A stretch of DNA of 64,000 nt, from assembly GCF_000970305.1 (NCBI RefSeq), contig NZ_CP009517.1, positions 3,720,001-3,784,000 of the forward strand, in the 5' to 3' direction. The position numbers and the translations under genes are program-made. The number at the start of each line of letters is the position of its first letter. Position 1 is the first letter of the stretch. This document shows, piece after piece, positions 1,057 through 22,595 of this stretch. Source of the stretch: Methanosarcina barkeri 3. Its GTDB lineage: Archaea; Halobacteriota; Methanosarcinia; Methanosarcinales; Methanosarcinaceae. The notes beneath the pieces are model-generated. The model was not told the DNA's origin. It searched no databases and was given only the letters and a program-made list of their open reading frames with translations.

Positions 1057-2931
1057 GTGAATAATATGATCGAAGCGATGAAAGAAATTGGTGAGTATGC
1101 GCTCGAAAAAGAAAACAAGGATTTAAATGATTTTGTATCAATTTTAGTTGAAAACCCAGCAAGCAATGAGACGTATAAGCATGTGCTCTGTATTAAGATA
1201 ACTTATAGTGATGGAAATTTTGAGTTTAAAGAAATCGAGCATCAGGAGTACTCAAAAGAAAAAATTGTAAAATACCTATATAAGAGAGGGTCCTCTAATG
1301 GCCCAGACATTACTCCTACTGCGCGAGTCACAGAAATCAAAAAAACATTCTCTAACAAGATTATAAGCTGGTTCTCAAAGCCTTTGAAAGAAGCAAAGCC
1401 TATATTAGACAGTGAAGAAGTCCAATTTTTAGAGCTTCTTGGAGATTGTATAAAGAAGAATGAAAAGAAAATACTCTTAGAGCTTGAACCTAAAATTAAT
1501 TCCATCGATGCAAAGGAAAATTCAATATTAACCTTAATTCTGGAAGAAAATGACTTCATTAGATATGTAGGAGATTTTGAAGCATTTCGTAAAATCCTTA
1601 AAAACAATGGGGCTTCTAAGTTTTACAGTAAATATAGTATTATTTCTAAAGCCGATGATAAACTATGTTCTGTTTGCAAAACACATAAAGAGGTTTATGG
1701 TTTTGTTACGCCTTATGAATTCTATACCGTAGATAAAAGAGGATTTGTTAGTGGAGGATTTGACCAAAGCAAGGCATGGAAAAATAATCCCGTTTGTCTT
1801 GAATGTGCCTTGAAAATTACAGCGGGAAAAGAATATATCGAAAAGTATATGTCTTTTGGTTTTTATGGATTCAATTTCCTCCTTATTCCTAAGCTGCTTA
1901 ATAATAGTACTAGCGAGAACCTTTTTGATATTTTTGAGAAATTCAATGAGAAAAAATTTGCATTTAATAAAGAATATAAAAATTTCTTACAGGATAATGA
2001 AAGCGATATCCTTGAAATTCTAAGTGAAGAGGATGATTATCTCAATTTCAATTTTCAATTTTATGAAAAATCCAATTCAGCATATCGAATTCTTTTGTAT
2101 ATAGAAGATGTTCTTCCTTCAAGGTTAAGAGAACTTTTCAGATCTAAAGAAATTGTTGACAAAAGGAAAATATTTAGAAATTATTATTTTAGTGATACTG
2201 AAGAGAAATCCATCCAATTCACATTAGGTAACGTAAGATGGTTCTTCCCGAATACTTTAGATGACCCCGATTTAGATAAGTATTTTTTAGAAATTACAAA
2301 CGGGATGTTTACAGGAGCATCAATTGATTATAATTTTTTGTTAAAGTATATTATGCGGCGTATTAGGAAAGATTTCAGGAGCGAAAACCCAACAAAATAT
2401 TCTCTATATCTGGGATTCCAAATGTTAGATTTTTTAAGTAACTTATGTTTGCTTGGAAATTATACAGGAGGTAAGTGTGTGAACTCTACGGATTTATCGA
2501 GTTTATTAAGTGACACGACGTTAAAGGAAAACGATGGCTATGAGGAGCGAACAAACATTATCTTTTCGGAATTTGAACATTTTTTCAATACTGATGCAAA
2601 GAAGGCTATTTTTTTAGAAGGTACACTTGCCCAGTATTTACTAAATATTCAGAAATTTCAGCGTGGAAGCACTCCTTTCAGAACTAAACTTCGAGGTCTG
2701 AGTTTTGACGAGCGTTATACGAAGAGAATCTTCCCTGAAATTATAAATAAACTTGAAGAGTATGATGCTAATTATTATAAAGAACTTGAGTACCTGATCG
2801 CAAAATACATGATTCAATCTGGGACTGGTTGGAAAATGTCAAACGATGAAATCAGTTTTTATTTTGTTTTAGGTATGAATCTGTCAAACCTTTTAAAGCC
2901 ACCTAAACCTGAAAAAGGAGACAAAAAATGA
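1057..2931 (+). CDS. cas8b: Type I-B Cascade large subunit Cas8b (TM1802/Csh1 family)
   Basis: A protein of 624 residues, the large subunit that recognises the PAM and helps load target DNA in type I-B interference. A CxxC pair at C204/C207 and a second at C247/C250 form the zinc-finger typical of Cas8b. The start is GTG 1057, with an in-frame ATG three codons later as an alternative. The stop overlaps the cas7 start as ATGA. The assignment rests on the zinc finger, length and position before cas7-cas5-cas3. Cas11b is often made from an internal start in such genes; I could not pick one out. Confidence 0.88.
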   Translation: MNNMIEAMKEIGEYALEKENKDLNDFVSILVENPASNETYKHVLCIKITYSDGNFEFKEIEHQEYSKEKIVKYLYKRGSSNGPDITPTARVTEIKKTFSNKIISWFSKPLKEAKPILDSEEVQFLELLGDCIKKNEKKILLELEPKINSIDAKENSILTLILEENDFIRYVGDFEAFRKILKNNGASKFYSKYSIISKADDKLCSVCKTHKEVYGFVTPYEFYTVDKRGFVSGGFDQSKAWKNNPVCLECALKITAGKEYIEKYMSFGFYGFNFLLIPKLLNNSTSENLFDIFEKFNEKKFAFNKEYKNFLQDNESDILEILSEEDDYLNFNFQFYEKSNSAYRILLYIEDVLPSRLRELFRSKEIVDKRKIFRNYYFSDTEEKSIQFTLGNVRWFFPNTLDDPDLDKYFLEITNGMFTGASIDYNFLLKYIMRRIRKDFRSENPTKYSLYLGFQMLDFLSNLCLLGNYTGGKCVNSTDLSSLLSDTTLKENDGYEERTNIIFSEFEHFFNTDAKKAIFLEGTLAQYLLNIQKFQRGSTPFRTKLRGLSFDERYTKRIFPEIINKLEEYDANYYKELEYLIAKYMIQSGTGWKMSNDEISFYFVLGMNLSNLLKPPKPEKGDKK

Positions 2932-3923
2932 CTGAAGTAAACAGAAGATCTGAAATTGTATTTTTGTATGATATTAAAGATGGAAATCCAAACGGAGATC
3001 CACTTGATGAAAACAAGCCACGTATTGACGAAGAGACCGGAATAAACCTTGTAACAGATGTCAGATTTAAGAGAACAATTCGTGATCATCTCTACAAATT
3101 TAAAGGGAAAGAAATTTTTGTTAGAGAAATTTCGGATGAAAACGGTTCTATTCAAGACGCAAAAATGAGGGCAAGAGATTTTTTGACAATTGACGAACCT
3201 CTTGATTCATTCGAAACTGGTAAAAGAGCCATTAATGAAAAACTCCTGGATGATTGTATTGACGTTCGTTTATTTGGAGGGACTGTTCCACTTGAACTTA
3301 AAGTCAAAAAGGGAAATAAAACTGAAACTAAAACTGAAACCGGATCAATAACTCACACTGGACCTGTACAGTTTAAGATTGGTAGATCAATGCACAAGGT
3401 ATTCACAAAACATTTCCGTGGAACAGGAGCTTTTGCTTCTAAGGAAGGAGCTACTCAAAAAACATTCCGTGAAGAGGATTTCTTACCTTATTCTTTGATA
3501 AATTTTTACGGAATTATTAATGAAAATGCGGCTAAGGACACGAAACTTTCGGAGAAAGATATAGATCTGCTTCTTGATGGAATGTGGAATGGAACTAAGA
3601 ACCTTATTTCCAGGTCAAAAGTCGGGCAGATTCCCCGCCTCCTGCTCAAAGTAAACTACAAAGAGGGAAATTATCATATTGGGGATCTGAACAACCTTTT
3701 CAGTCTTAAGTCTGAATTGATAGATGAAGAGATTCGGGATATCTCACAAGTAAGGATTGAAATCCAGAGACTGATTGATGTATTGGGTAAAAATAAAGAT
3801 AAAATTGAAAATGCCCAGATTTGCTCGGACGGGTCGATTACGTTTACATATGGTGGAGAAGAGATTGATCTCGAAAAAAGCCTTATGGAAGCCGGGATCA
3901 ATACTGAAACATTATCAATGTGA
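2928..3923 (+). CDS. cas7: Cas7 (Csh2/DevR-type) Cascade backbone subunit
   Basis: 331 residues. The N-terminal RSEIVFLYDIKDGNPNGDP is the hallmark of the Cas7/Csh2 family, whose RRM-like fold polymerises along the crRNA spacer. Later segments (VTDVRFKRTIRDHL; THTGPVQFKIGRSMH; FRGTGAFASKEG) also fit the family. ATG 2928 has a GGAG seven bases upstream and overlaps the cas8b stop, so translation is probably coupled. It is transcribed with cas8b and cas5. Confidence 0.93.
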   Translation: MTEVNRRSEIVFLYDIKDGNPNGDPLDENKPRIDEETGINLVTDVRFKRTIRDHLYKFKGKEIFVREISDENGSIQDAKMRARDFLTIDEPLDSFETGKRAINEKLLDDCIDVRLFGGTVPLELKVKKGNKTETKTETGSITHTGPVQFKIGRSMHKVFTKHFRGTGAFASKEGATQKTFREEDFLPYSLINFYGIINENAAKDTKLSEKDIDLLLDGMWNGTKNLISRSKVGQIPRLLLKVNYKEGNYHIGDLNNLFSLKSELIDEEIRDISQVRIEIQRLIDVLGKNKDKIENAQICSDGSITFTYGGEEIDLEKSLMEAGINTETLSM

Positions 3924-3932
3924 GCTAAGAAC

Positions 3933-4634
3933 ATGAAAGTATTAGTGTTCGATGTATGGGGAGAATTCGGTCATTTCCGAAAACACTATACTACAACTTC
4001 TCCCCTTACATATTCTATTCCTCCTAGAACGGCTATTGCGGGAATGATTGGTGCTATAGAAGGGTTTGGCAAAGATGAGTATCTGCAGTATTTTTCTAAA
4101 GAAAAAGCAAATATTACGGTAAAAATAAGTTCTCCTATCAAAAAGACCAGAATTGCAGAAAATTTAATCGACACCAAAATTGCTCCTTTAATGAGCAGAA
4201 TAAAGACCAGAACCCAGATAAGATTCGAAGTGTTGAAAGATGTAAAATATAGGGTTTATATTTCTCATTCCTCTGAAGAAGTATATAACAAACTTTACTC
4301 TATGTTAAAAGAACACAAATCAGTGTATACTCTGTGCCTCGGTCTGAGTGAACATATTGCCAATTATGAATTCATAGGAGAAATGGAAGCTGTCAGTGAA
4401 CTTTCAGATTCTGAAAGGGAAATCCATTCTGTAATTCCTGAAAAAGAGCTAATAAAAATCAGTTTTGAAGAAGGAAAAGAGTATTTTTCGGAGACTATTC
4501 CAATAGAAATGCTTCCAAATAGAGAAGTTATAGAATATGGCAAAGTCTTGTTCGAAAGAAATGCAAAATGCATCCTTGCAAGTGTAAATAGTCTCTGGAG
4601 ACTTGAGAATGGTGAAGGAATTATCTTCATGTGA
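3933..4634 (+). CDS. cas5: Cas5 (Cas5h/Cas5b) Cascade subunit
   Basis: 233 residues. The start, VFDVWGEFGHFRKHYTTTSPLTYSIPPRTAIAGMIGAI, is the conserved Cas5 N-terminus, including the hydrophobic 'PPRTAIAGMIGAI' helix after the first strand. Cas5 caps the 5' handle of the crRNA in Cascade. The gene starts 9 bases after the cas7 stop. Its last 26 bases overlap the beginning of cas3, if cas3 starts at ATG 4609. Confidence 0.92.
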   Translation: MKVLVFDVWGEFGHFRKHYTTTSPLTYSIPPRTAIAGMIGAIEGFGKDEYLQYFSKEKANITVKISSPIKKTRIAENLIDTKIAPLMSRIKTRTQIRFEVLKDVKYRVYISHSSEEVYNKLYSMLKEHKSVYTLCLGLSEHIANYEFIGEMEAVSELSDSEREIHSVIPEKELIKISFEEGKEYFSETIPIEMLPNREVIEYGKVLFERNAKCILASVNSLWRLENGEGIIFM

Positions 4635-7044
4635 TTTCCATCTTTATTCCCATCCCGAAAAAATATTATTTAAACACTTATCCAATGTAGGGAACAAATC
4701 TATCTCGACCAGTAAAGAGAAAAGTTTATCATTGGAAAAGTTTGGGATTGATGAAAATACTTTTTCTAAAATAACATTTCTTATAGGAGTTTGCCACGAT
4801 TTTGGGAAAGGCACGAAGTATTTTCAGAGATATCTCTTTGAGACTAATCCTTCTATACAGAGGAGCTTAAGAAATAAAAGAGAATATCATCATGGCCTGA
4901 TCTCAGCTATCTTTACCTATTACATATTAGAAAAATATGTAGGTTCACTTAAGGATAAAAATATTCTGGAATATATTCCTACCATAGGATATCTCATTGT
5001 AAAAAAGCATCATGGAAACTTAAAAAATGCTGAGGATGAAATACGAGAACTAATAGATGAAGACACTCTCGAAATTATTGATCTTCAAATAAAGTCATTA
5101 GATACAAGTGAATTAAAAGCAGTATATGAAAAGCTACTCGATGAGTATGGTATTCCTTTTGACATAGATACTTTTTGCAACGAGTACCGTTCCATCGCTA
5201 AAGAAATTTTAAAAAGTAAAAGAAAATTCATAAAATTGCTTAAAGAGGAGCAATTTACAGGCTATTATTTAATTACATTAACTCTTTACTCAATTCTTAT
5301 CAACTCTGATAAGATAGATGCGTCTTCTATTGATGTTTCCAGTGAAATAGAAATTTCACCTGAACTTGTGGATAAATACAAGGTAGAAAAAGGTTTCCAA
5401 AATAATGAAAGTACAATGAATAAAGTGCGTAACGAGATTTATAAGGAAGTTACAGAAAATATTGAGAATCTTGATCTTGATAAAAAAATATATTCAATAA
5501 GTGTCCCTACAGGTTCAGGAAAAACTCTCACATCACTTTCTTTTGCATTAAAATTGAAAGCAAGATTAAGAGAGGAAAAAAGAATCAAGGCGAAAATAAT
5601 TTATTCTTTACCTTTTTTGAGTATTATAGACCAGAATTATGACGTTTTTGAAGACGTTTTTAAAACAGTTGAGACCACAAATCTTTCTGAAGATGTACTA
5701 CTTAAACATCATCACCTAGCAGATATATTTTATAGAACTCAAGATGATGAAGAATTTGAAGGACTTAAAAGCTTATTTTTAATCGAGGGGTGGAACTCTG
5801 AGATAATCGTTACTACATTTGTCCAGTTTTTCCACACAATCGTGTCTAATAAAAATCGCTCACTCAGGAAATTTCATACAATTGCAAATTCGATTGTAAT
5901 ACTTGATGAGGTCCAGTCAATTCCTCATAAGTACTGGTTACTGTTAAAACAAGTCATTTCGGGTTTTGCAGAATATTTTAATACATACTTCATTTTTGTA
6001 ACAGCAACTCAACCTCTCATTTTTGATCCTGAAAAAGGAGAAATCGTTGAGCTGGTAAAAAATAAAGATACTTATTTTAGGGAATTTGATCGAGTTAAGC
6101 TGAAAATAACTCTGAATCCAATGAATTTGGATGAATTTAAGGGAATAATTGATTCAGAAGTCAAAGAGAAGATAGATAAGAATTTTTTATTTGTATTTAA
6201 CACTATAAAATCTTCTTTGGAGATATTCAACCATTTAAAAAGTTTAAAATTAGAAAATAGTGATTATTATTATCTTTCGACTAATATTATTCCAAAAGAA
6301 AGGCTTAAGAAAATTAAGGAAATTAAAGAAAAGTCGGAGAAAAGAAAAATTATTGTTAGCACTCAGCTTATAGAAGCTGGAGTAGATATCGATGTAGATA
6401 TTGTTTATAGGGATTTTGCTACAATTGATTCAATAAATCAGGTTTCAGGGCGATGTAACAGGAATTCTTCAAAAAGTTATCGAGGACAAGTAAATATTGT
6501 GGTTTTGAAAGATGAAAGGAAAGAGTTTCATCGATATATATATTCGAGTTTTCTCATCGACAAAACAAAAGAAGTATTGAAGGAATTTCCCTCAGAAATT
6601 TATGAAAAAGATCTTCTCTTTTTAAATAATAATTATTTCAGGAAAGTTAAAGATACTTCAAGTGAAGATGAGTCCAAAGAGCTACTCTCATACATAAATG
6701 AGCTTAAATTCAAAACTCTTACATCTGATTTCAGGTTAATAGATGACAAAACCGGATACGAAAAAATAGATGTGTTTGTAGAAAATGATACAGAAGCGGC
6801 TGAAATATGGAAAGAGTACACTGTAATGAAATCTCTTAAAAATCCACTGGATAGAAAAGAGAAATTCCTGTCCATCAGGAGAAAATTCAATGAATACATC
6901 ATCTCGGTGCCTAAAAAAGACTTTCCCTGTGAAGAACTAGAGGATCTTAACATAGGATATATTCCTTTAGAACAAATAAAGCATTATTATGATCCTGAAA
7001 CCGGTTTTGTTTTTGAATTAAAGTCCACAATGATGTGTGATTGA
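4609..7044 (+). CDS. cas3: Cas3 HD nuclease-helicase
   Basis: 811 residues from ATG 4609 (a TTG at 4603 and a GTG at 4612 are also in frame). The HD motif is H63-D64 in GVCHDFGKG. The helicase half shows Walker A PTGSGKT at about 300, a DEVQ box (VILDEVQSIP), VTATQP (motif III) and the GVDIDVD...QVSGRCNRN segment (motif VI). These are all the motifs of the single-strand-degrading effector recruited by type I Cascade. The 3' end abuts cas6. No frameshift or missing catalytic residue was seen, so interference should be functional. Confidence 0.93.
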   Translation: MVKELSSCDFHLYSHPEKILFKHLSNVGNKSISTSKEKSLSLEKFGIDENTFSKITFLIGVCHDFGKGTKYFQRYLFETNPSIQRSLRNKREYHHGLISAIFTYYILEKYVGSLKDKNILEYIPTIGYLIVKKHHGNLKNAEDEIRELIDEDTLEIIDLQIKSLDTSELKAVYEKLLDEYGIPFDIDTFCNEYRSIAKEILKSKRKFIKLLKEEQFTGYYLITLTLYSILINSDKIDASSIDVSSEIEISPELVDKYKVEKGFQNNESTMNKVRNEIYKEVTENIENLDLDKKIYSISVPTGSGKTLTSLSFALKLKARLREEKRIKAKIIYSLPFLSIIDQNYDVFEDVFKTVETTNLSEDVLLKHHHLADIFYRTQDDEEFEGLKSLFLIEGWNSEIIVTTFVQFFHTIVSNKNRSLRKFHTIANSIVILDEVQSIPHKYWLLLKQVISGFAEYFNTYFIFVTATQPLIFDPEKGEIVELVKNKDTYFREFDRVKLKITLNPMNLDEFKGIIDSEVKEKIDKNFLFVFNTIKSSLEIFNHLKSLKLENSDYYYLSTNIIPKERLKKIKEIKEKSEKRKIIVSTQLIEAGVDIDVDIVYRDFATIDSINQVSGRCNRNSSKSYRGQVNIVVLKDERKEFHRYIYSSFLIDKTKEVLKEFPSEIYEKDLLFLNNNYFRKVKDTSSEDESKELLSYINELKFKTLTSDFRLIDDKTGYEKIDVFVENDTEAAEIWKEYTVMKSLKNPLDRKEKFLSIRRKFNEYIISVPKKDFPCEELEDLNIGYIPLEQIKHYYDPETGFVFELKSTMMCD

Positions 7045-7045
7045 C

Positions 7046-7705
7046 ATGAAAGTCAAAACGCTAACTTTAACACTTGTTCCTGACCGAAAAGTAGGAACAA
7101 ACGCCTCAAAACTTCGGGGTTTTTTCGCAACCCGATTTAATGAATATACGCTTTTGCATCAACATAACTGTGATAAAGTAATCTATACGTATCCTTTAGT
7201 CCAATATAAAATTTTGAAAGGCATTCCTCTAGTTTTCGGGGTAAATGAGGGTGTAAAAGTTCTGCAGGAAATTTTCAATAAATATGAAAAAATAGAGCTA
7301 GGTGAATCCACATATGAAATCCTGGAAAAGAAAATATCCCTTAAAGAGCAGGATTTCGGTATTTCAGACAAATTCCATACATACAGCTTCGAAACTCCCT
7401 GGTTTGCCCTAAACCAAGAAAATTTTACTGACAAATACAAGAGGATGGACTCTACCACACAAAAAGAACTCCTTCGAAAAACTCTTGTTGGAAACATTCT
7501 TTCAATGTCCAAGTCTCTTGGTTATACTGTTCCTGAAAAAATCAAATGCGAGATAAATTTGTATCCAGGTAGCAGTAGAATGAAAGGAGTAAAAATTGCT
7601 ACTTTTAAAGGAAAATTCATGGTAAATTTCCTCATCCCCGACTATTTCGGTCTTGGAAAATCGGTATCTCGCGGTTTTGGAACGGTGAAAAGATGCAGCT
7701 TGTAA
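7046..7705 (+). CDS. cas6: Cas6 pre-crRNA endoribonuclease
   Basis: 219 residues. The double-RAMP layout ends in the family's glycine-rich loop, GLGKSVSRGFGTVKR. I chose ATG 7046, just after the cas3 stop; GTG 7037 would add three residues and overlap cas3. Cas6 cuts each repeat of the array transcript, leaving an 8-nt 5' handle, here expected to be AUUGAAAC. Histidines lie in the first 45 residues (LLHQHNCDK), but I cannot assign the catalytic one. Its last 13 bases overlap cas1. Confidence 0.88.
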   Translation: MKVKTLTLTLVPDRKVGTNASKLRGFFATRFNEYTLLHQHNCDKVIYTYPLVQYKILKGIPLVFGVNEGVKVLQEIFNKYEKIELGESTYEILEKKISLKEQDFGISDKFHTYSFETPWFALNQENFTDKYKRMDSTTQKELLRKTLVGNILSMSKSLGYTVPEKIKCEINLYPGSSRMKGVKIATFKGKFMVNFLIPDYFGLGKSVSRGFGTVKRCSL

Positions 7706-8664
7706 TCAACACCCACGGTTCATTTCTAAAAAAGCAGAACAACTGTTTCCTTGTAAAAGTTGACGACAAGACCTTTGAAGTTTCTGAAAAGAAAGTTGAC
7801 AGCATCCTGATTACAACTTCTGCAACTATAACAACCGATGCCATTAAATTTGCTGTGGAAAACAATATCGATATTGTTTTTCTGGACAATTTCGGAGACC
7901 CTTACGGCAGAGTCTGGCACTCAAAACTTGGAAGCACAACCTACATAAGAAGAAGGCAACTCGAAATTTCGGAAGAGCCTGAAGGGTTCAGGCTTGCAAA
8001 AAGCTGGATTGAACAGAAGATTGACAGCCAGATCTTTTTTTTGAAAGACCTCAAAAAGAACAGGCCTGACCAGAAGGACGAACTTGACGACTACATTTCC
8101 GGAATGGAAGACATGAAATCCCAGCTTGAGACTCTTGAAGGAAAACTTGACGAGATGCGGGGAAAAATCATGGGCCTTGAGGGAATGGCTTCTAGACACT
8201 ATTTTGAGGCTTTGAGTTTTCTTTTGCCTGACAGGTGGAAATTCAACGGCAGAAGCCGGAACCCTGCAAAGGATGAGTTCAACTGCCTTTTGAACTACGG
8301 ATATGGGGTTTTGTACTCAAAGGTGGAAAAAGCATGCATTATAGCAGGACTTGATCCTTATGTCGGCTTCAATCATACGGATGACTATAACAAAAAGTCA
8401 TTTGTGTTTGACCTTATTGAGATGTACCGCATCCACATTGACAGAACAGTTTTCAACCTTTTCTCGAAAAAGCAGGTTTCAGACAGCTTTTTTGATGAAA
8501 TCCCGAATGGGATGACTCTTAACAAAGAAGGTAAAGCTGTCCTCATCCAGGCTGTCAATGAAACTTTTGATAAAGAAATAAGCTACAAGGGAAGAAACAT
8601 AAAAATTGGAAATACAATCCAGTTTGACTGTCACAGGATTGCAAACAGCCTGATCGGGAAATAA
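7693..8664 (+). CDS. cas1: Cas1 spacer integrase
   Basis: 323 residues. The metal-binding triad can be placed as E163 (GLEGMASRHYF), H228 (GFNHTDD) and D240 (FVFDLIEMYR), at the usual spacing. The segment NPAKDEFNCLLNYGYGVLYSKV is the conserved helix of the catalytic domain. Cas1 with Cas2 integrates new spacers at the leader end. It starts inside the cas6 reading frame, so the processing and adaptation genes are tightly coupled here. Confidence 0.95.
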   Translation: MQLVINTHGSFLKKQNNCFLVKVDDKTFEVSEKKVDSILITTSATITTDAIKFAVENNIDIVFLDNFGDPYGRVWHSKLGSTTYIRRRQLEISEEPEGFRLAKSWIEQKIDSQIFFLKDLKKNRPDQKDELDDYISGMEDMKSQLETLEGKLDEMRGKIMGLEGMASRHYFEALSFLLPDRWKFNGRSRNPAKDEFNCLLNYGYGVLYSKVEKACIIAGLDPYVGFNHTDDYNKKSFVFDLIEMYRIHIDRTVFNLFSKKQVSDSFFDEIPNGMTLNKEGKAVLIQAVNETFDKEISYKGRNIKIGNTIQFDCHRIANSLIGK

Positions 8665-8724
8665 AACTTTCAACGCACTAATAATGGTGTAAGTCTGTGA
8701 AAAGGTAACTTAACGATTCGATAA

Positions 8725-9054
<330 letters not shown>

Positions 9055-9068
9055 GTTTTGAGGTAAAC

Positions 9069-9776
9069 ATGACTGATTCTGAGTGTACGGTAGGCGAGCA
9101 AAGAGTTGAAACAGACTGTGAAGGAAATATAGCTCCTGAAGATGATCCGGAGAATGAAGAAGAGGCATACCTTGAACCCGTTTCTGAAAACGATTCCGGA
9201 TCAATAATCCGAATTTCAGACGTTCTCGAATACCTTTACTGCTCCCGTTTTATCTACTATATGTATTGTCTTGATATTCCTCAGCATGAAGAGAAAAGGT
9301 TTAAAGTTATTAAAGGCCGTGAGGTCCATGAAACAAGGAAACTGACCAACAGGGATTACGTAAGGAAGAAACTTAACTGCATAAGGAAGGAGAGCGACGT
9401 CTTCATTGCTTCAAAACAATACCATATAAAAGGAATAGTTGATGAGGTACTTTTTCTTGAAGACGGTACTGCTGCTCCTCTTGAGTACAAATTCGCTGAG
9501 TATAAAGACAAGATTTTTAAAACCTATAAGTTTCAACTGGTTTTGCAGGCTCTTTTGATTAGGGAAAATTACAGTATTAAAGTAAACCGTGCTTACATTT
9601 GTTTTACCCGCAGTAACAGCCTTGTCAAAGAAATGGAAATTACTACTTCTGATTTCAAAAAGGCTGAGAAAATTATTGAGGAAATAATCGATATTGTTCA
9701 AAAAGGCTTATATCCCAAAACTACTAAATCTTCTAGAAAATGCGTAGATTGCTGTTACCGAAATATCTGCGTATGA
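9069..9776 (+). CDS. cas4: Cas4 exonuclease with acidic N-terminal extension
   Basis: 235 residues. The RecB-like core has C58 (YLYCSRFIYY), GREVHETR, an IVDEV aspartate, and the LEYKF glutamate-lysine pair. C225, C228/C229 and C234 at the end complete an iron-sulfur cluster. Cas4 trims pre-spacers and sets PAM orientation. Before the core there is a roughly 45-residue, very acidic extension (EDDPENEEEAYLEP) that most Cas4 proteins lack as far as I know. It is the last gene before the leader, a position more often held by cas2. Confidence 0.9.
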   Translation: MTDSECTVGEQRVETDCEGNIAPEDDPENEEEAYLEPVSENDSGSIIRISDVLEYLYCSRFIYYMYCLDIPQHEEKRFKVIKGREVHETRKLTNRDYVRKKLNCIRKESDVFIASKQYHIKGIVDEVLFLEDGTAAPLEYKFAEYKDKIFKTYKFQLVLQALLIRENYSIKVNRAYICFTRSNSLVKEMEITTSDFKKAEKIIEEIIDIVQKGLYPKTTKSSRKCVDCCYRNICV

Positions 9777-9888: not shown

Positions 9889-12800
9889 ATTCGTGAGCAA
9901 GATCCATTAAAACAAGGATTGAAACTACAGCCTGTACAATCAGAACTAGAAGCACATTCTGAATTCGTGAGCAAGATCCATTAAAACAAGGATTGAAACA
10001 TTTTAAGTTATCTGATGGAGCTAAAGAACTGATTAATTCGTGAGCAAGATCCATTAAAACAAGGATTGAAACTAATTTAGTTCTAGAAGAAGCAATTAAA
10101 AGAGGCAGATTCGTGAGCAAGATCCATTAAAACAAGGATTGAAACTTAAGGTATAGGTTTCTGTACCGATTGAGTGGTATTATTCGTGAGCAAGATCCAT
10201 TAAAACAAGGATTGAAACAGTTTTATCGTACCGTTGTCGTCTTTTAATCCGGATTCGTGAGCAAGATCCATTAAAACAAGGATTGAAACTTACTTTTATT
10301 TAGTTATGTAGCGGCTGCTGCTACGATTCGTGAGCAAGATCCATTAAAACAAGGATTGAAACTAATTGCAGCATCTTCAGTTGCAGTTGCCGAATAAATT
10401 CGTGAGCAAGATCCATTAAAACAAGGATTGAAACTCACCTTCAATCAATTATTAAGTAGTCAATCACTTATTCGTGAGCAAGATCCATTAAAACAAGGAT
10501 TGAAACATAACAGTTCCATATTTTGAGAATGTTGTGTGCCAGATTCGTGAGCAAGATCCATTAAAACAAGGATTGAAACCCTCTTATAGAGTTAAACGGT
10601 GGAGAGCATAGGATTATTCGTGAGCAAGATCCATTAAAACAAGGATTGAAACTTACTAACGGGCCTATAGAAATTCCATCAGGAAAATTCGTGAGCAAGA
10701 TCCATTAAAACAAGGATTGAAACCTCCGTAGTTGGAGATATAGTCGTATACCGTCATCGTGATTCGTGAGCAAGATCCATTAAAACAAGGATTGAAACAT
10801 TCCTGGTGGTGATCCCCTCTGCAAATGGTTATATTCGTGAGCAAGATCCATTAAAACAAGGATTGAAACCTATGTGTCTGACAGTAAGTAAATGTGAAAA
10901 AAATTATTCGTGAGCAAGATCCATTAAAACAAGGATTGAAACTCCCTTCAGAACGTGGTTCTCTCGCAGAGTTTTTGAATTCGTGAGCAAGATCCATTAA
11001 AACAAGGATTGAAACCGGAGATGTGCATACTTCCCTCTAACGTTTTTAATTATTCGTGAGCAAGATCCATTAAAACAAGGATTGAAACTAAAGTATGTGG
11101 CTGGCGACGGCACAGGTGATTATGAATTCGTGAGCAAGATCCATTAAAACAAGGATTGAAACCCCATCATCTTTCGTACTCGTTCCCTTTCATCTTCATT
11201 CGTGAGCAAGATCCATTAAAACAAGGATTGAAACAGCGCATTCTCTCCGGCAGTTTGCAGCATCGTAATATTCGTGAGCAAGATCCATTAAAACAAGGAT
11301 TGAAACTAACAAAGCCATTATAACCGCAACAGTAATGCCAAATTCGTGAGCAAGATCCATTAAAACAAGGATTGAAACAAGTACTGTTGAGCCACTACAC
11401 TTTGAATATGAAATATTCGTGAGCAAGATCCATTAAAACAAGGATTGAAACCATACTTTCTCGGCAAAGTAGTCTATACCAGTCTTTATTCGTGAGCAAG
11501 ATCCATTAAAACAAGGATTGAAACCCAAATATCTTTTTCTTGAATGCAAAAACCGAAATATTCGTGAGCAAGATCCATTAAAACAAGGATTGAAACAAAT
11601 ATATACAAGTTAATTACGAAGTATCTACTAAATTCGTGAGCAAGATCCATTAAAACAAGGATTGAAACATTTTAGCTATCAAGTCTTTTGTTTCAGATTC
11701 CTTACATTCGTGAGCAAGATCCATTAAAACAAGGATTGAAACAAATTTTTCACAGGTGTCAAAAAAGACGTAACAAATTCGTGAGCAAGATCCATTAAAA
11801 CAAGGATTGAAACCACAGACTATATAAACCATAGTTATCTACCATCCATATTCGTGAGCAAGATCCATTAAAACAAGGATTGAAACATCATCCTCTACTT
11901 GCTCAGTCTTTCTGCTGGTTTTATTCGTGAGCAAGATCCATTAAAACAAGGATTGAAACTTAAAATCGCAAAAGGTGCATCAAGAATCAAAGGCATTCGT
12001 GAGCAAGATCCATTAAAACAAGGATTGAAACTTAGATTCAATTTCATATCGAAAGTTAGAGAACGATTCGTGAGCAAGATCCATTAAAACAAGGATTGAA
12101 ACTGAATTATTCCCTGAAGAATTCGACTATCTAGAAGGAGATTCGTGAGCAAGATCCATTAAAACAAGGATTGAAACCACCAACCGCCTACAAGCTCTTC
12201 AGGGAGTACCATATTCGTGAGCAAGATCCATTAAAACAAGGATTGAAACCACAAGCGAAGCAGGCAATTCAACAACTGATTTCAATTCGTGAGCAAGATC
12301 CATTAAAACAAGGATTGAAACGTGATTGGGATACAACGTTAAAATTTCTTGAAACATTCGTGAGCAAGATCCATTAAAACAAGGATTGAAACAAAGAAAA
12401 TGAAATCAGAATAAAAGAGTTGAAGCATTCGTGAGCAAGATCCATTAAAACAAGGATTGAAACAATTTTGAGCGTTCTTTCATCACTCAACCTCTGAACA
12501 TATTCGTGAGCAAGATCCATTAAAACAAGGATTGAAACTATAATCATCTGACATTTTGCCTACTCCTTAAAAGAAATTCGTGAGCAAGATCCATTAAAAC
12601 AAGGATTGAAACTCAGGATAGCAGACTTGCAAGCTGTGCAAAGAATCATATTCGTGAGCAAGATCCATTAAAACAAGGATTGAAACATGAAAATCAGGAA
12701 GCCGGGGGTGTATATTCAGATGAATTCGTGAGCAAGATCCATTAAAACAAGGATTGAAACTTAAAAAAGCTAACGGTGCATCCAGAATAAAAGGGGTATT

Positions 12801-15800
12801 CGTGAGCAAGATCCATTAAAACAAGGATTGAAACTCCAATTAATAGCCCTCCGGTAAAACGGTTTTTGACCATTCGTGAGCAAGATCCATTAAAACAAGG
12901 ATTGAAACGTTCCGAGTGGTTCGGAGCCAGGGACTTACAGGAGTATTCGTGAGCAAGATCCATTAAAACAAGGATTGAAACTTTTGCAGGAAAACAAAAA
13001 TAATTTCTCTTTTTTATTATTCGTGAGCAAGATCCATTAAAACAAGGATTGAAACTTATTATCGTTGTATATATCATATGATTACGGACACATTCGTGAG
13101 CAAGATCCATTAAAACAAGGATTGAAACTGGAAGAGACGGGAGCTATACATCAACAATAGGTTAATTCGTGAGCAAGATCCATTAAAACAAGGATTGAAA
13201 CTCAAGTCTTTAGTTTGTGATTCCTTACACTTAATGAATTCGTGAGCAAGATCCATTAAAACAAGGATTGAAACATCACCTTCATATTATACTTATCAAT
13301 TGTAGATCCAATTCGTGAGCAAGATCCATTAAAACAAGGATTGAAACAGGTCTTGGAGATACTTATTTTCTGTTTCTGTAAATATTCGTGAGCAAGATCC
13401 ATTAAAACAAGGATTGAAACGACAACCGTGGGCTTCTTTAATTATTGAAGGATTAAATTCGTGAGCAAGATCCATTAAAACAAGGATTGAAACATGCTTA
13501 TTATGTATTGTAAAAGGGCGAGTGCCCAACGATTCGTGAGCAAGATCCATTAAAACAAGGATTGAAACCCATATGGAACCCACTTGATATAAAAATGAAA
13601 GATCCTATTCGTGAGCAAGATCCATTAAAACAAGGATTGAAACTAATGTTTTCACTAATTCTTCCAAATTGACGTCAGATTCGTGAGCAAGATCCATTAA
13701 AACAAGGATTGAAACTGCGCAGGAACTCAAAAAATACTCGACGGAAACGTTATTCGTGAGCAAGATCCATTAAAACAAGGATTGAAACCTGAATGGAAAA
13801 ATAGACTGGAAAAACTTAGCGAAAATTCGTGAGCAAGATCCATTAAAACAAGGATTGAAACAACATATAGTGCTTGACAAGACCAGCAAAGGCAAAGGAT
13901 TCGTGAGCAAGATCCATTAAAACAAGGATTGAAACTGTCTTCAGTCATGATTTATCTTCCTCGTAAGCTTCATTCGTGAGCAAGATCCATTAAAACAAGG
14001 ATTGAAACTCGAGTAGGATCTCCTCTGGATAATGCTCAGATACTCATTCGTGAGCAAGATCCATTAAAACAAGGATTGAAACATCAAATAATAGCAGAAT
14101 CAACAAAAGAAACACAAATTCGTGAGCAAGATCCATTAAAACAAGGATTGAAACCAGTCTATTTTTCATGCTCGTGCGAGAAGTGCTGACATTCGTGAGC
14201 AAGATCCATTAAAACAAGGATTGAAACACATTTTCAAGGAATATAATTTCGGGTCTTTTTTCTATTCGTGAGCAAGATCCATTAAAACAAGGATTGAAAC
14301 CAGCTTCCAATATCTCATCATCTGTTACAACTTATTCGTGAGCAAGATCCATTAAAACAAGGATTGAAACTTCGAATTACGGTAACTGACGCCAGCATTC
14401 AGGCTATTCGTGAGCAAGATCCATTAAAACAAGGATTGAAACTAGTTTTCTATCAATGGCAATATAACAGTCAACTCATTCGTGAGCAAGATCCATTAAA
14501 ACAAGGATTGAAACTCCATCGTTGTGACAACGAAATGATCAAGCTTTGTAATTCGTGAGCAAGATCCATTAAAACAAGGATTGAAACGATAAAGAAGGAA
14601 ACACGTGCATTTTAGCATATGCTATTCGTGAGCAAGATCCATTAAAACAAGGATTGAAACACTCGAATTCAACTGCACGTTCCGCATCGTAAAAATATTC
14701 GTGAGCAAGATCCATTAAAACAAGGATTGAAACTTCAATCGAATTTGATTCATCTGATAAGCTCTTTCCATTCGTGAGCAAGATCCATTAAAACAAGGAT
14801 TGAAACTCTGGATCTCTAAAGGTTGTAACGTCCATACCCCCGATTCGTGAGCAAGATCCATTAAAACAAGGATTGAAACTTTTTCATAATTCCTTTGAGA
14901 ATCTGCCCGTACACAATTCGTGAGCAAGATCCATTAAAACAAGGATTGAAACTCAAATGTAGTCAATAATACAATTCTTTCGTCTTATTCGTGAGCAAGA
15001 TCCATTAAAACAAGGATTGAAACAAAATAATAATATTACAAACGGTATGGGAATCAGGATTCGTGAGCAAGATCCATTAAAACAAGGATTGAAACGTAGA
15101 ATCAATTAACTTTCAGTTCAGGGGCCTCTATTCGTGAGCAAGATCCATTAAAACAAGGATTGAAACTAGTATAAATACATACCATATGCAGTATAAAATA
15201 TAAATTCGTGAGCAAGATCCATTAAAACAAGGATTGAAACTGGCAAGCTCTACCAGCAACAAAAATAATTAAAAAAATTCGTGAGCAAGATCCATTAAAA
15301 CAAGGATTGAAACGCGACTTAAGAAGCTCTTGCCCAATCTGGAAATTAAGATTCGTGAGCAAGATCCATTAAAACAAGGATTGAAACTTCGGTGAATATC
15401 CCAATATTGGGATTAATGCTTATGATTCGTGAGCAAGATCCATTAAAACAAGGATTGAAACTTCGGTGAATATCCCAATATTGGGATTAATGCTTATGAT
15501 TCGTGAGCAAGATCCATTAAAACAAGGATTGAAACTCAGTAAAATATATATCATGAATCTGCCCTGCCTGTAGTATTCGTGAGCAAGATCCATTAAAACA
15601 AGGATTGAAACAAATAGTAACATAAGAGGTTTGAAAACAATGAGCAAAATTCGTGAGCAAGATCCATTAAAACAAGGATTGAAACAGGAATCCACACCTT
15701 ACAAACTTCCTCCTCGATACTGTATTCGTGAGCAAGATCCATTAAAACAAGGATTGAAACCAGAGGAATTACTACAGAAATGGGGGTGGAACCAATGATT

Positions 15801-17068
15801 CGTGAGCAAGATCCATTAAAACAAGGATTGAAACCGGCAGGATCTTCAGCTATCATCTTAATATCTGCCATTCGTGAGCAAGATCCATTAAAACAAGGAT
15901 TGAAACTCTCCGTCTTCAACTAGATACAGGATATTTGCTTTAATTCGTGAGCAAGATCCATTAAAACAAGGATTGAAACCAGGTTATGCCGTCGTCTATA
16001 GCGGTGCAATGATCTATTCGTGAGCAAGATCCATTAAAACAAGGATTGAAACCATTTACTTTCTAATTTAGCCTTAAATTTTCCAAAATTCGTGAGCAAG
16101 ATCCATTAAAACAAGGATTGAAACTGAATCCTCTGAAAAATACAAAGTAACAGTCTTATTCGTGAGCAAGATCCATTAAAACAAGGATTGAAACCTCCTT
16201 ACTTCAATTGTTTTCAATCCTTCAACAATAAATTCGTGAGCAAGATCCATTAAAACAAGGATTGAAACTGAAAATCATCCCAAGTTCTAAGGTATGACTT
16301 TCCATTATTCGTGAGCAAGATCCATTAAAACAAGGATTGAAACACATCCCTGCTGATCCTCTACGTACTTCAGCCAGTCATTCGTGAGCAAGATCCATTA
16401 AAACAAGGATTGAAACTTATAAAGAGTTATTATCTAAAGGGCAAATCAATGATTCGTGAGCAAGATCCATTAAAACAAGGATTGAAACCTATGTATCAAA
16501 CAAACCTACTAGACGGTGATGTAATTCGTGAGCAAGATCCATTAAAACAAGGATTGAAACGTAATTCAGCTAGCATTTGTGCTAATCAACCTAACCGATT
16601 CGTGAGCAAGATCCATTAAAACAAGGATTGAAACTCTTATAGTGCTGGCTCTAGGTGTCTTATGTCTGATTCGTGAGCAAGATCCATTAAAACAAGGATT
16701 GAAACTATGGTCAAATAATAGAGTAACCGGTTTTGTTAGTATTCGTGAGCAAGATCCATTAAAACAAGGATTGAAACGGGGTTTTCGTGATAACTTGCCC
16801 GGAGAAAAGCATAATTCGTGAGCAAGATCCATTAAAACAAGGATTGAAACAAATTAAAGCTGTTCCAGTCATTGTATACCACCATATTCGTGAGCAAGAT
16901 CCATTAAAACAAGGATTGAAACTTCGATGCTGGGCTGATGTCAGCCAGGGTTAACCCCATATTCGTGAGCAAGATCCATTAAAACAAGGATTGAAACTTA
17001 TTTTCTTTTCCTTCTTCTATAGAAATTATGTATTCGTGAGCAAGATCCAATAAAACAAGGATTGAAAC
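9889..17068 (+). CRISPR. CRISPR array, 99 repeats of 37 nt, 98 spacers
   Basis: The repeat begins ATTCGTGAGCAAGATCC and ends AAAACAAGGATTGAAAC. I counted 99 copies by walking each start from 9889 to 17032. Repeat-to-repeat distances are 70-76 bases, so spacers are 33-39 nt. All copies looked identical except the last (17032-17068), which has CCAAT for CCATT. ATCC and GGAT within the repeat can pair as a short stem before the ATTGAAAC handle. Spacers 76 and 77 are identical; spacers 25/46 and 29/40 are related but not identical. Open frames read across the array are artefacts of the repeat. Confidence 0.98.
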
Positions 17069-17181
17069 AAATGAACGCATACTTACAAAGAATACTAACA
17101 AACCATTTTAGTAAATTCTATTAGAGTCGATCCTATGTTGAGTTAGATATGTTAATATTCTGTTATAACATATTATAATAT

Positions 17182-17433
17182 ATGTCTACTATAGCCATTG
17201 ACCCAGATGTAAAGGAATCACTTAAAGAATTTAAGATTACAGAAAACGAGTCTTATAATTCCATTATCAAACGGCTCATTGTTAAAGTTAAAGAAACTGC
17301 AGAGTATAAACCAATGTTCCCAAAAGAAGAGAACACCGAACGAAGAGAATCACATGTCAAAGATTTTGATGCATGGTTGGATAGGAAACTCATAGAAGAC
17401 AAAGAGATCTTAGACGCACTCGGAAGAAAGTGA
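17182..17433 (+). CDS. Antitoxin of a Doc-type toxin-antitoxin pair
   Basis: 83 residues. The N-terminus TIAIDPDVKESLKEFK...ESYNSIIKRLI resembles ribbon-helix-helix (or DUF7557-type) archaeal antitoxins. The charged C-terminal half (FDAWLDRKLIEDKEIL) would wrap the toxin. An AT-rich TATA-like run (ACATATTATAATAT) sits directly before ATG 17182, suggesting a leaderless or very short-leader transcript. The gene precedes the toxin by one base. Direct autoregulation is expected from the family but no operator was identified. Confidence 0.7.
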   Translation: MSTIAIDPDVKESLKEFKITENESYNSIIKRLIVKVKETAEYKPMFPKEENTERRESHVKDFDAWLDRKLIEDKEILDALGRK

Positions 17434-17434
17434 T

Positions 17435-17821
17435 ATGTTGATTAGCTTAATTGATGTCTTAAAAATTCATCAACGAGTGATTGACTATGACAAAGAGGAG
17501 AATCCTGACGATTATACGCCTGCAATTAGATCTCTTGCTACATTAGAGTTAATGTTTGAATATATGATAAAGGGAGCTAATACCGTTTTTCAAAATGCTG
17601 CAATTGTAGTTTATACCATTGTCTCAAGACATCCGTTTTTTAACGGAAATAAAAGAACGGGATACGAAGCAATGAATTTTGTTCTTGAGGATAGTGGGTA
17701 TACACTTACATCTACTCCACAAGAAACGATAGAATTTATAGTCAAGGTTGCAGCAACTGAAAACGAGATGAAGCCGGCTGAAATTGAAGAATGGATTATT
17801 AATCATACCATTAAACAATAA
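17435..17821 (+). CDS. doc: Doc/Fic-family toxin (death-on-curing)
   Basis: 128 residues with the Fic/Doc active-site motif HPFFNGNKRTG at about residues 68-78, containing the catalytic His and the phosphate-binding NGNKR loop. The length is that of Doc, whose known E. coli phage P1 member phosphorylates elongation factor Tu. It follows the antitoxin with a one-base gap. The pair lies between the last intact array repeat and two further degenerate repeats, that is, inside the old distal end of the array. The target in this organism is unknown. Confidence 0.88.
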   Translation: MLISLIDVLKIHQRVIDYDKEENPDDYTPAIRSLATLELMFEYMIKGANTVFQNAAIVVYTIVSRHPFFNGNKRTGYEAMNFVLEDSGYTLTSTPQETIEFIVKVAATENEMKPAEIEEWIINHTIKQ

Positions 17822-17913
17822 AAATTATTTTGTTAAGATGGAGGTTATCAAAAATAACCCAAAAGATTGTCTATTTTATTTACCAGTGTCTTTTCATGCC
17901 TGAATATGCTACT

Positions 17914-18080
17914 ATTCGTGAGCAAGATCCAATAAAAAAAGGATTGAAACAAGATACTAGCAAGTAGCGCTGAGGTGGAGAACTATTCGTGAGCAAGAGC
18001 CACTAAAAAAAGGATTGAAACTCTGAATCAAGTAGTTATATTGACGATGCTATACCACTTCGTGAGCAAAATCTACCAAT
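17914..18080 (+). CRISPR. Severed distal remnant of the CRISPR array
   Basis: Two 37-base repeats at 17914-17950 and 17985-18021 keep the ATTCGTGAGCAAGA start and GGATTGAAAC end but carry AAAAAAAGG instead of AAAACAAGG. The first shares the CCAAT variant with the final repeat of the main array. A third, badly decayed copy follows at 18059-18080 (TTCGTGAGCAAAATCTACC). Spacers of 34 and 37 bases separate them. The main array and this tail were probably continuous before the toxin-antitoxin genes moved in. Confidence 0.9.
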
Positions 18081-18260
18081 AGTTAAGTAATTATGAATAT
18101 TGTGGCCTTTTGTTTTTTCATGGATTATTAAGTATTAAGCAATTCACAGGAAAAAATCATAAAGTTAAAAAGTACTAAGGCCTTACATCTATTCTCAAAG
18201 AAGTAGTTCATACAGGACAATTTATGTTTAAATGCACAGACAAGCATTTTAATTGAATAG

Positions 18261-18911
18261 ATGGTGGTCGAAATTAAAGGACAGAACAAATTAACTAGTT
18301 TCGTATTTAAAGTTATCTGGATGGTTTCTGTTTTTAATTTATTACTTTCAGGCCTTTTTCTTTACATGGGAGAATATGTCTCAGGTAAAGAGATTTTAAG
18401 CGACTCTATCGGACCATCAAAAGATATCGATAACAAAGTCATACTTACTGAAAACGAAGTGGTGACCTTTGTGTTTAAAACAGAGGAACCGTACTCCAGC
18501 TCTGAACTGTTAAGAATCATCATAGTTGATCCAGGAAACATAGAGCATTCCTGGGAGAAAGATTTCTATGGATCCACAGTTGGCGGGTCACGAGGGACTG
18601 AAAGAGGAGCTAAAGATTACTTTTCATTTACGCCTGAAGTATCAGGGATGCATCACATAAAAATAAGTAACGCCGACTTCCAAACAGATGTTAAGCTGGT
18701 TTCTGGAATGGTAAATCCACATGAGCGACCTTTCCTCTTGACAACACTGTTCATATCTTTTCTGGTCATGTCAGCAGGTATTTTATCATTGAAGGATGGA
18801 TCAATCAAGGAGTTTATAAAGTCCAGACGTTTTTCGATTAACGGAATACTCAACTTTTGTATAGCCCTATCTATAAGCCTGGTTATAGTGTATAACGTGG
18901 TTGGTCTATGA
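18261..18911 (+). CDS. Membrane protein, function unknown
   Basis: 216 residues with three predicted hydrophobic helices: about 15-36 (VIWMVSVFNLLLSGLFLYMG), about 155-175 (FLLTTLFISFLVMSAGIL) and the C-terminus (ILNFCIALSISLVIVYNVVG). Between the first two lies a soluble region of about 110 residues, rich in strands, probably outside the cell. I do not recognise the family. The last 18 bases of the gene are repeated directly after the stop (CGTGGTTGGTCTATGA twice). Confidence 0.65.
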   Translation: MVVEIKGQNKLTSFVFKVIWMVSVFNLLLSGLFLYMGEYVSGKEILSDSIGPSKDIDNKVILTENEVVTFVFKTEEPYSSSELLRIIIVDPGNIEHSWEKDFYGSTVGGSRGTERGAKDYFSFTPEVSGMHHIKISNADFQTDVKLVSGMVNPHERPFLLTTLFISFLVMSAGILSLKDGSIKEFIKSRRFSINGILNFCIALSISLVIVYNVVGL

Positions 18912-19506: not shown

Positions 19507-19551
19507 GTGGAGTGTAATATTGTGGAGTGTAATATTATGGAGTGTAATATT
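19507..19551 (+). repeat. Three 15-bp tandem repeats, each with a start codon and GGAG
   Basis: The unit RTGGAGTGTAATATT occurs at 19507, 19522 and 19537, directly followed by ATGGAAAATG at 19552. Because 15 is a multiple of three, the four starts (GTG, GTG, ATG, ATG) are all in frame with the decarboxylase-like gene. Each unit supplies a GGAG about 10 bases ahead of the next start. Confidence 0.8.
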
Positions 19552-20344: not shown

Positions 20345-20377
20345 TCAGAGTCAAGAGCAAGATCCATTGAACCAGGA
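20345..20377 (+). repeat. Decayed CRISPR repeat, left of the RNB gene
   Basis: GAGCAAGATCCATT at 20355-20368 is an exact piece of the array repeat, followed by the altered GAACCAGGA. The eleven bases before it (TTCAGAGTCAA) resemble those before the copy at 22343 (TTCAGATCTAA). The two sites are therefore longer direct repeats flanking the RNB gene. Confidence 0.75.
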
Positions 20378-20406: not shown

Positions 20407-22182
20407 TTAATTCTCGGACACTAAAGTGTATATCATTTCTCTAGCCGCTAGCCGTTTGGCTCTCTGCTTTTTTCCTGCCTGTCCGGTGCTGGTCGAGGAG
20501 CCAAAGGTGCAGGTACAGGTGAAAATAGGTTTGCAGGTAGGTCCTTCAGCCTTAAACGAATAAGTCGGTAAGGGAAGTTTCTTTGCCTGACAATACTCCT
20601 GCAAGGCAAAAATCGGGTCTCTTGACGTATTAATCGTGACTTCGTCATTACTGGCCGGCGAATCTATAATCTTGGTCTTCAAGTTTGGAACTGGTAAGCC
20701 CAGGATAGTAGCTAGCAGGTCTACGGATGCCAGCTGAGTTGCTCCTTTCTTTGTCAAGTCTTCATATACAGCAGACCGGTACTCGATATTATTTACTCTG
20801 ATGGCACTTTGGGCAGTAAACACCGGTAAATTACCACGAATCGTATTAGTTACTTTGTATACTGGCATCTGCCAGCCCAGTATATTCTGCGCGATGTCGA
20901 AGATCGAGACTGCCTTGTGAGGCGCAGTTGCAATTTCCTCCAGCAATGCTCTTTTAAGTTCAGTCCATCTTTTGCCATAAGGGGCTTGCAATAGTACTAG
21001 CTCCGCACAAATGATCGGCAGCTTGCCAAGGCGTCTCCGGAATGCATCGCAGTAGGCCTCGGGACAGTCATCACCTTTGCGGATAAGGAATTTGGTGATG
21101 AGCTCGAAGTCTGTATCGCTCGCACTATCTATCCGATCTCCCAGGATGGCAGACTCAGCTTTTCTATATGCCTTTTCCTTCATGTACTCACTTTTAGCCT
21201 TGTCGTTTTCAAGGTGTATCAGGTTGATATGCGATGCAATTGCCAGAATCTCCTCTTTGGAATGGGGCAAGGGTTCGTTCTGGACGTGAGCCCGGATCTG
21301 TTGGTGATTCACAAGATCAGCATACCTTCGGATGGGTGAGGTAAAATGAGTATATGCACCCAGGTTCAGTCCGAAATGGCCCAGGATAACGGGGCCGTAT
21401 TCCGCTCTGCTAAGCATCATGTACGTGGTATGTCTGACAGCAGCTATGTTTACCTCGGGGATGACAGTTACGCTTTCGAGCAACTTCATTAAGTCCACTC
21501 GCTCAGGGGTGACACTTCGGGCTGTATGGTTACGGAAAAGGATAGGGATGTCATTTTTGACCGCGTACTCTGCTACGGCCATGTTAGCGAGAATCATCAG
21601 CTCCTGGATGATAACATAGCCGATGGTATCCTCCCTGCGTCTCAATTGTTTTATAGACCCTTCTTCATTTGTCACCAGCCCCCGCCCCAAATCATAGAAT
21701 GCCAGCGCTCCAAGATTGCGGCGCTGCGTTAAAAGGTCGTTCGCAAGCTGGCTTGCGAGCTTGATGAGAGCGTGCTGCGTGTGCTCGCTATCAGAGAGAA
21801 TGCGGGGGACATCAGAAAAAGATAGCCGGGCTTCGCTGATCATAACAGTCCGCAAAAGCCGTGTTTCGAGGATTGACAAATTCATGCCGAGGACAATATC
21901 CACGGCAAGAACATACTTCGACTCTTCCGGCCACAGGGAAAGCTTCTCGTCTGCAAGCCGTCGGGGTAACATCGGGCTATTGCCGTTTGCATAATATCTG
22001 GTCTCGATCCGAGACATTGCAAGCCGATCAAGCTCTGAATGCTTGGAAATTACCTTTGCGACATCCGTGATCATAACTACAACGTGCCAGCCGCCGTTTT
22101 CCGTGATTTCCACCCAGATTGCATCATCCATATCCCGGGTTGTCACGTCATCGATCGTAATACCTCTTAACATATCTGGCAT
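20407..22182 (-). CDS. RNB-domain ribonuclease with two C-terminal dsRNA-binding domains
   Basis: 591 residues from ATG 22182 (MPDMLRGITIDD); a frame open to 22260 adds a hydrophobic stretch unlike the family. The RNase II/R catalytic domain shows the Asp cluster DDVTTRDMDDA at 11-21 and THFTSPIRRYADLVNHQQ at 278-295. No cold-shock or S1 domain is seen. Instead residues of about 420-494 (FDIAQNILGW..PVYKV..LPVFTA..TKKGATQLAS) and 522-587 (ALQEYCQAKKLPLPTYSF..GPTCKPIFT..GKKQRAKRLAA) fit the double-stranded RNA-binding fold. Predicted 3'-5' exonuclease on structured RNA. It is bracketed by decayed CRISPR repeats. Confidence 0.85.
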   Translation of the reverse strand: MPDMLRGITIDDVTTRDMDDAIWVEITENGGWHVVVMITDVAKVISKHSELDRLAMSRIETRYYANGNSPMLPRRLADEKLSLWPEESKYVLAVDIVLGMNLSILETRLLRTVMISEARLSFSDVPRILSDSEHTQHALIKLASQLANDLLTQRRNLGALAFYDLGRGLVTNEEGSIKQLRRREDTIGYVIIQELMILANMAVAEYAVKNDIPILFRNHTARSVTPERVDLMKLLESVTVIPEVNIAAVRHTTYMMLSRAEYGPVILGHFGLNLGAYTHFTSPIRRYADLVNHQQIRAHVQNEPLPHSKEEILAIASHINLIHLENDKAKSEYMKEKAYRKAESAILGDRIDSASDTDFELITKFLIRKGDDCPEAYCDAFRRRLGKLPIICAELVLLQAPYGKRWTELKRALLEEIATAPHKAVSIFDIAQNILGWQMPVYKVTNTIRGNLPVFTAQSAIRVNNIEYRSAVYEDLTKKGATQLASVDLLATILGLPVPNLKTKIIDSPASNDEVTINTSRDPIFALQEYCQAKKLPLPTYSFKAEGPTCKPIFTCTCTFGSSTSTGQAGKKQRAKRLAAREMIYTLVSEN

Positions 22183-22331
22183 AGTACCACTTAGATGCAA
22201 AATTTGGTATACTTTCCTTATGTGTATATTTATTAGTAAAAAATAGTAAGAGATGCCCATATTTATAAGTCGTTATTTTGGCTGCGCTGAAGTGACGAAA
22301 AAAGAATTATTGTTCCATCGTGGCAAATAAT

Positions 22332-22372
22332 TTCAGATCTAAGAGCAAGATCCACTAAAACAAGGATTGAAA
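22332..22372 (+). repeat. Well-preserved CRISPR-repeat relic, right of the RNB gene
   Basis: From GAGCAAGATCCA at 22343 through AAAACAAGGATTGAAA at 22372 only one base differs from the array repeat (C for T). The first six repeat bases are replaced by TTCAGATCTAA, as in the copy at 20345. It is divergent to the RNB gene, about 160 bases from its start. Confidence 0.88.
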
Positions 22373-22595
22373 TGTTACTCCAATCTACAATTCCATTAAA
22401 GGTTCTCTAAAAAACTGTGAAACTTCAAAACTTCCCTCAATAAAGTTAATATACTGGTTACTGGCATTTTTATTCAAAATTAATTATTTTATGTGCGTCT
22501 TCATTTCCAGGCACAGAGTGGAAGGGGAACTTAATTCAGGTTCTTTTTATAACAACAAGAAATTAAAACTCTCACAAGCTTCAACAATAAAACGG

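Follow-up and report, generated by a model that had tools for sequence, protein, structure and literature searches.

The window, a stretch of 64,000 nucleotides, is part of a single-contig 4.56-Mb Methanosarcina genome (C1:3720001-3784000) and holds a type I-B cas operon followed by a CRISPR array whose tail contains a toxin–antitoxin (TA) gene pair (Table 1). The last of the 99 repeats of the main array has CCAAT in place of CCATT and is the sole variant among them. An 845-bp gap separates it from the first tail repeat, which carries the same CCAAT and one more change, and the antitoxin and Doc open reading frames lie inside this gap, one base apart. The remaining spacers of this array measure 33-39 nt. 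The second tail repeat, with three changes, has the CCACT form that also occurs in the solitary repeat at 22337 and in the second array of the genome, at 200-205 kb. No repeat-like match on the opposite strand was found in any tail examined, and the reversed-sequence control likewise gave zero. The first-pass annotation had described a TA module lodged inside the array tail, and its coordinates and parts proved correct; the observation is real and larger in extent than first noted.

Table 1 Features of the cas locus, the array and the array tail, in window coordinates
Feature	Position	Strand	Basis or remark
Type I-B cas operon: cas8b (TM1802/Csh1), cas7 (Csh2), cas5, cas3, cas6b, cas1, cas2, cas4	1057..9776	+	Pfam and NCBIfam matches
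Main CRISPR array, 99 repeats of 37 nt	9889..17068	+	98 identical, last with CCAAT
Last main-array repeat, CCAAT variant, upstream boundary of module	17032..17068	+	
TTATAA-CATA-TTATAA palindrome, probable TATA box and operator of module	17163..17178	+	Kept in 12/12 copies
Antitoxin gene, 83 aa, DUF7557/VapB-like	17182..17433	+	PF24434 above cut-off; dN/dS
Doc toxin gene, 128 aa, motif HPFFNGNKRTG	17435..17821	+	TIGR01550; 12 intact genes of the family in the genus
First tail repeat past toxin, downstream boundary of module	17914..17950	+	2 mismatches to consensus, CCAAT
Second tail repeat, CCACT form	17985..18021	+	3 mismatches
Decayed third tail repeat, 5' part only	18059..18081 (start approximate)	+	TTCGTGAGCAAAATCTACCAAT
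Gene without assignment, between module and fossil repeat	18261-18911		
Carboxymuconolactone-decarboxylase-family gene, between module and fossil repeat	19507-20322		
Fossil of ancestral terminal repeat, beside nuclease-gene flank	~20347..20370	+	Alignment with terminal repeat and trailer of G003, G008, G012, G020, G028
RNB-domain nuclease gene; 3' flank marks the probable ancestral array end	20407..22260	-	Pfam RNB and dsrm; trailer alignment
Solitary repeat past nuclease gene	22337..22373	+	6 mismatches

The antitoxin matches DUF7557 (PF24434) with 29.5 bits against a cut-off of 25 and VAPB_antitox with 27.2, slightly below the cut-off of 27.9; the Pfam and NCBIfam profile search gave no Phd/YefM-family match for it. 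The toxin scores 121 bits for TIGR01550 (cut-off 38.65) and 41.9 for Pfam Fic (cut-off 24). Its catalytic motif, HPFFNGNKRTG, with the histidine and NKR, is present here and in nine further copies of the family. In G013 and G011a the catalytic His is replaced, by Asn and Arg, respectively, and the toxins of these two are therefore probably inactive. The structure model of Doc is weak (mean pLDDT 53), and the Doc sequence matches solved Doc and FICD chains; a PDB search with the likewise weak antitoxin model returned no significant match. PADLOC gave weak matches only.

All 12 copies of the gene pair have the antitoxin-first order of type II systems, with both genes in the same direction and 1-2 bases apart. 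The palindrome directly 5' of the ATG is retained with small changes in each of them, and farther 5' there is no conservation between clades. This element suggests that the module has its own promoter and operator, subject to autorepression by the antitoxin. Antitoxin dN/dS ranges from 0.00 to 0.33 and is mostly below 0.13; taken together, the two genes are mostly below 0.3. The highest value, 0.44, comes from the closest Doc pair, which has few changes, and Doc stays under 0.5 in every pair computed. Judged by these ratios, purifying selection is acting on both genes in most comparisons.

We searched 31 Methanosarcina species genomes, one per species and several of them split into many contigs, with TIGR01550. 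The search returned 12 intact Doc genes, all of one family and 62-100% identical to the query, and additionally two broken or short Doc fragments. Ten of the 12 intact copies, in nine genomes (this one and eight other species), are flanked on both sides by CRISPR repeats of a single family, and each of these copies is oriented along the array strand. Some loci were picked for containing Doc, so the fair count is ten of 12 copies and not a frequency of Doc among inserts, and the array-located copies should not be counted as ten separate events. In G006, two copies of the module with identical coding sequence are each bounded by repeats. The first-pass annotation had named, as the finding that would count against it, a module located elsewhere in relatives with an uninterrupted array devoid of the tail repeats. 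This is not the general picture, and only one or two of the 12 copies are away from arrays. One is a G011 copy with no detectable repeat remnant, in a genome whose other copy is in an array; the other, in G025, has a possible reverse-strand remnant, a 21-nt match on the opposite strand ~45 bp downstream that beats 100 of 100 shuffles. The genome studied here has four further DUF7557 matches, at 0.94, 2.41, 2.49 and 4.52 Mb, all of them far from both arrays, which serves as a partial control.

For Doc homologs (~40%) in other genera of the family, the loci examined, 2-3 kb long, were free of CRISPR repeats. Among possible carriers, plasmids gave best matches of at most ~41% identity over about half of the protein, and IMG/VR gave one distant match (32%). 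No literature describing a TA pair inside a Methanosarcina CRISPR array was found, which is weak evidence because subscription journals were mostly uncovered.

The state of the locus without the module is preserved in relatives. In G003 and G012, the array continues without interruption to a terminal repeat directly adjoining the 3' flank of the RNB-nuclease gene, and G020, G008, and G028 likewise have a repeat followed by this trailer sequence. In the window, alignment places the fossil repeat immediately before the nuclease-gene flank, and in G020 the module sits between the array and that terminal repeat. These alignments are most simply explained by an ancestral array that extended as far as the nuclease gene, within whose former bounds the module and the two genes between it and the fossil repeat now lie. 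The first-pass annotation had proposed that the module entered the array and had advised looking for empty sites in related strains; the sites in G003 and G012 and the recurrence across the genus uphold its insertion into an array that was once longer. It had also argued from the shared CCAAT that the two flanking repeats were once neighbors. The variant is indeed shared, but the argument drawn from it is weak, because the flanking repeats of M. spelaei (G028) are likewise identical (0 differences) and share a private variant of their own, while they differ from their counterparts here at 2 and 3 positions, so that flanking repeats may be homogenized per genome. The pair in the window has 1 difference, and 2 to 8 were counted in the other pairs compared. 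The shared CCAAT would be explained equally well by gene conversion between the two flanking repeats, and the insertion claim rests on the empty sites, the better evidence, rather than on this variant.

The module also appears to have been exchanged between species. Among the genome studied here (G000), G004, and G030, its synonymous divergence is 0.05-0.10, against 0.30-0.46 for the neighboring ubiA and 0.48 for cas4; among G006, G013, and G020, it is 0.18-0.35, against 0.62-1.61 for cas4. Fisher tests on synonymous changes gave p values of 6e-6 to 7e-10 for the module versus ubiA and cas4, and weaker ones versus rnr (0.02) and mcrA (0.007, 0.0003, and 0.14). The mcrA tree places G013 with the other side of the genus, the deepest fork being weakly supported, whereas the module tree places it with G006, G008, and G020 (99/98). 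Genomes of one module clade share the sequence downstream of Doc as far as the next repeat, and past it they differ. Since the module is less diverged than ubiA and cas4 and the sequences past the flanking repeats differ, these data suggest transfer of the module by recombination in the repeats. Lineage-specific deletions between repeats could explain the differing neighbors, but they would not account for the lower divergence. Neither an excised nor a circular form of the module was seen.

The cas genes that accompany the module are of several kinds. The I-B Csh2/TM1802 effector of this genome has close Cas7 relatives in G030, G006, and G011; G020 encodes a more distant Csh2/TM1802 pair, G004 has Cst1/Cst2, G013 has Cst2, and G008 has the type I-D Csc2/Csc3. 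In M. spelaei the cas genes, with a divergent Csh2, are on a different contig from the module, and in G011 cas genes and module are also on separate contigs. Because the loci carry I-B (Csh or Cst) or I-D effectors, the module is a companion of the array tail rather than of one Cascade type. In G004, G008, G013, G020, and G030, the orthologous locus combines one repeat family, and in several cases the same downstream genes, with different effectors (I-B Csh, I-B Cst, and I-D), an arrangement that would fit effector swapping beside a conserved repeat family.

Other features of these loci deserve mention. The main-locus tails (L031-L053, for example L036, L050, and L033) are patchworks in which decayed single repeats, all in one orientation, are interspersed with ordinary genes over 10-15 kb. 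An insert between array and tail repeat in G023 (L043, 5092-5803) carries a DUF2683 gene, possibly another antitoxin. In G006 (L034, 9265-10770), and in a matching insert of G008, an opposite-strand gene pair lies between repeats; one of the genes has a very weak ParE-toxin match (E 0.06), and the pair is a possible second TA type of the tails. At the other end of our locus, a truncated duplicate of the Cas8b N-terminus (703-1038, ~50% identical over residues 18-99) lies directly upstream of cas8b. In the same region (440-1057), degenerate repeats at ~447-477 and ~513-549 flank a pseudo-spacer, ATGTAAGAAATATGTGTAG..., of which 17 of the first 18 nt match just upstream of the open reading frame at 703, and which resembles the cas8b start region. 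This element is possibly a crRNA-like autoregulator of the cas operon. We considered it as a guide for the module and rejected it, as its pseudo-spacer by eye resembles the cas8b start region instead and the element is missing in seven relatives. Spacers were likewise rejected as CreTA-type guides, five arrays compared with the module giving nothing above shuffled spacers.

The explanation that we favor, with a probability of about 0.6, is that the module is a self-sufficient type II TA operon, served by a conserved palindromic promoter of its own and by a protein antitoxin, and that this operon (Doc with a DUF7557/VapB-like partner) colonized the old end of the main Methanosarcina array as a repeat-bounded cassette that maintains itself by addiction. 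CRISPR repeats would be the recombination targets for entry of the cassette, its movement between species, and its duplication. Transcription would be leaderless, from the module's own promoter, and the labile antitoxin would both neutralize Doc and repress this promoter. P1 Doc acts on a translation factor, and by analogy the stable Doc enzyme of the module would probably modify one as well. If the module were lost through recombination of its flanking repeats, the toxin would be left without its antitoxin; if the array tail were protected as well, this would be a side effect that does not depend on Cascade. The replaced histidines of G013 and G011a count against the cassette explanation, as does the weaker divergence excess relative to mcrA and rnr.

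That the module recurs among the CRISPR repeats of nine species, each time along the array strand and with differing Cas types nearby, could also mean that it was selected for punishing deletion of the array or its tail, as a Cas-independent analog in effect of CreTA; the first-pass annotation had raised a similar idea, namely that the toxin could punish deletion of the CRISPR locus. We regard this as unlikely, even though the direct repeats on either side make deletions across the module easy. The module is absent from at least five CRISPR loci in the genus (G003, G012, G007, G018, and G023), many losses of newer spacers would leave it untouched because it lies at the old end, the catalytic His is substituted in two of the array copies, and the same tails also house non-toxin genes. 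That an ordinary type II pair travels between species as a repeat-bounded cassette and acts as a Cas-independent guardian, stabilizing any array it enters against repeat-mediated deletion, seems to us just as doubtful. The non-toxin genes (GNAT, cupin, UbiA, RNB-nuclease, and IS-like genes between decayed tail repeats) raise another possibility, namely that array tails tolerate inserts and that the pair is one of many caught genes with no effect on the array; the probably inactive toxin of two copies would agree with this. Such a passenger role is rather improbable, given that ten of 12 Doc copies are in tails, that the other four of the five DUF7557 antitoxins of this genome are far from both arrays, and that the coding sequences are under purifying selection.

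The location in a CRISPR locus and the degenerate repeats upstream of cas8b in this genome could recall a CreTA-like arrangement, with the toxin repressed by Cascade under guidance of a crRNA-like RNA. We consider this very improbable: the spacers of five arrays matched the module promoter no better than shuffled ones did, the pair has its own promoter and a conserved protein antitoxin gene one base upstream of the toxin, effector types vary, and the element upstream of cas8b is not shared by the seven relatives. The least credible account is that Cas1-Cas2 integrated the module as a giant spacer, duplicating one repeat on either side, since the near-identity of the flanking repeats here and in M. 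spelaei, with private variants, is accounted for by gene conversion and is not found in the other pairs, every other spacer here is of ordinary length (33-39 nt), and the module occupies the old end of the array rather than the side of the leader.

CRISPR loci carry a cost and are readily lost, which raises the question of what retains them. The answer offered by CreTA is an RNA pair tied to Cascade. A classical protein TA pair found repeatedly between CRISPR repeats within one genus, with empty and filled sites and varied Cas types, would be a simple, testable system for addiction-stabilized tails; it would also suggest that CRISPR repeats serve as recombination sites for gene cassettes.

Compared with Phd-Doc of bacteriophage P1, the module, known here from sequence, shares a Doc-family toxin with an HxFxxxNKR-type motif and a small antitoxin gene directly upstream in one operon, but its antitoxin is DUF7557/VapB-like and not Phd, and it is chromosomal and placed between CRISPR repeats. 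Superintegron cassette arrays contain TA cassettes, and the likeness lies in small gene cassettes, including TA pairs, between the repeats of a long array, except that CRISPR repeats would serve general recombination only. In CreTA of Haloarcula hispanica, toxin and antitoxin are both RNAs, and the antitoxin needs Cas6 and Cascade (PMC12737573). The first-pass annotation had set the module apart from CreTA in its parts, and rightly so: the toxin is not a small RNA but a Doc-family protein of 128 aa, the antitoxin is a protein rather than a crRNA-like RNA with a spacer partly matching the toxin promoter, and the pair has its own palindromic promoter, resides in the array tail, and accompanies several effector types. 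What the two have in common is a TA element within a CRISPR locus that could make the loss of CRISPR DNA costly.
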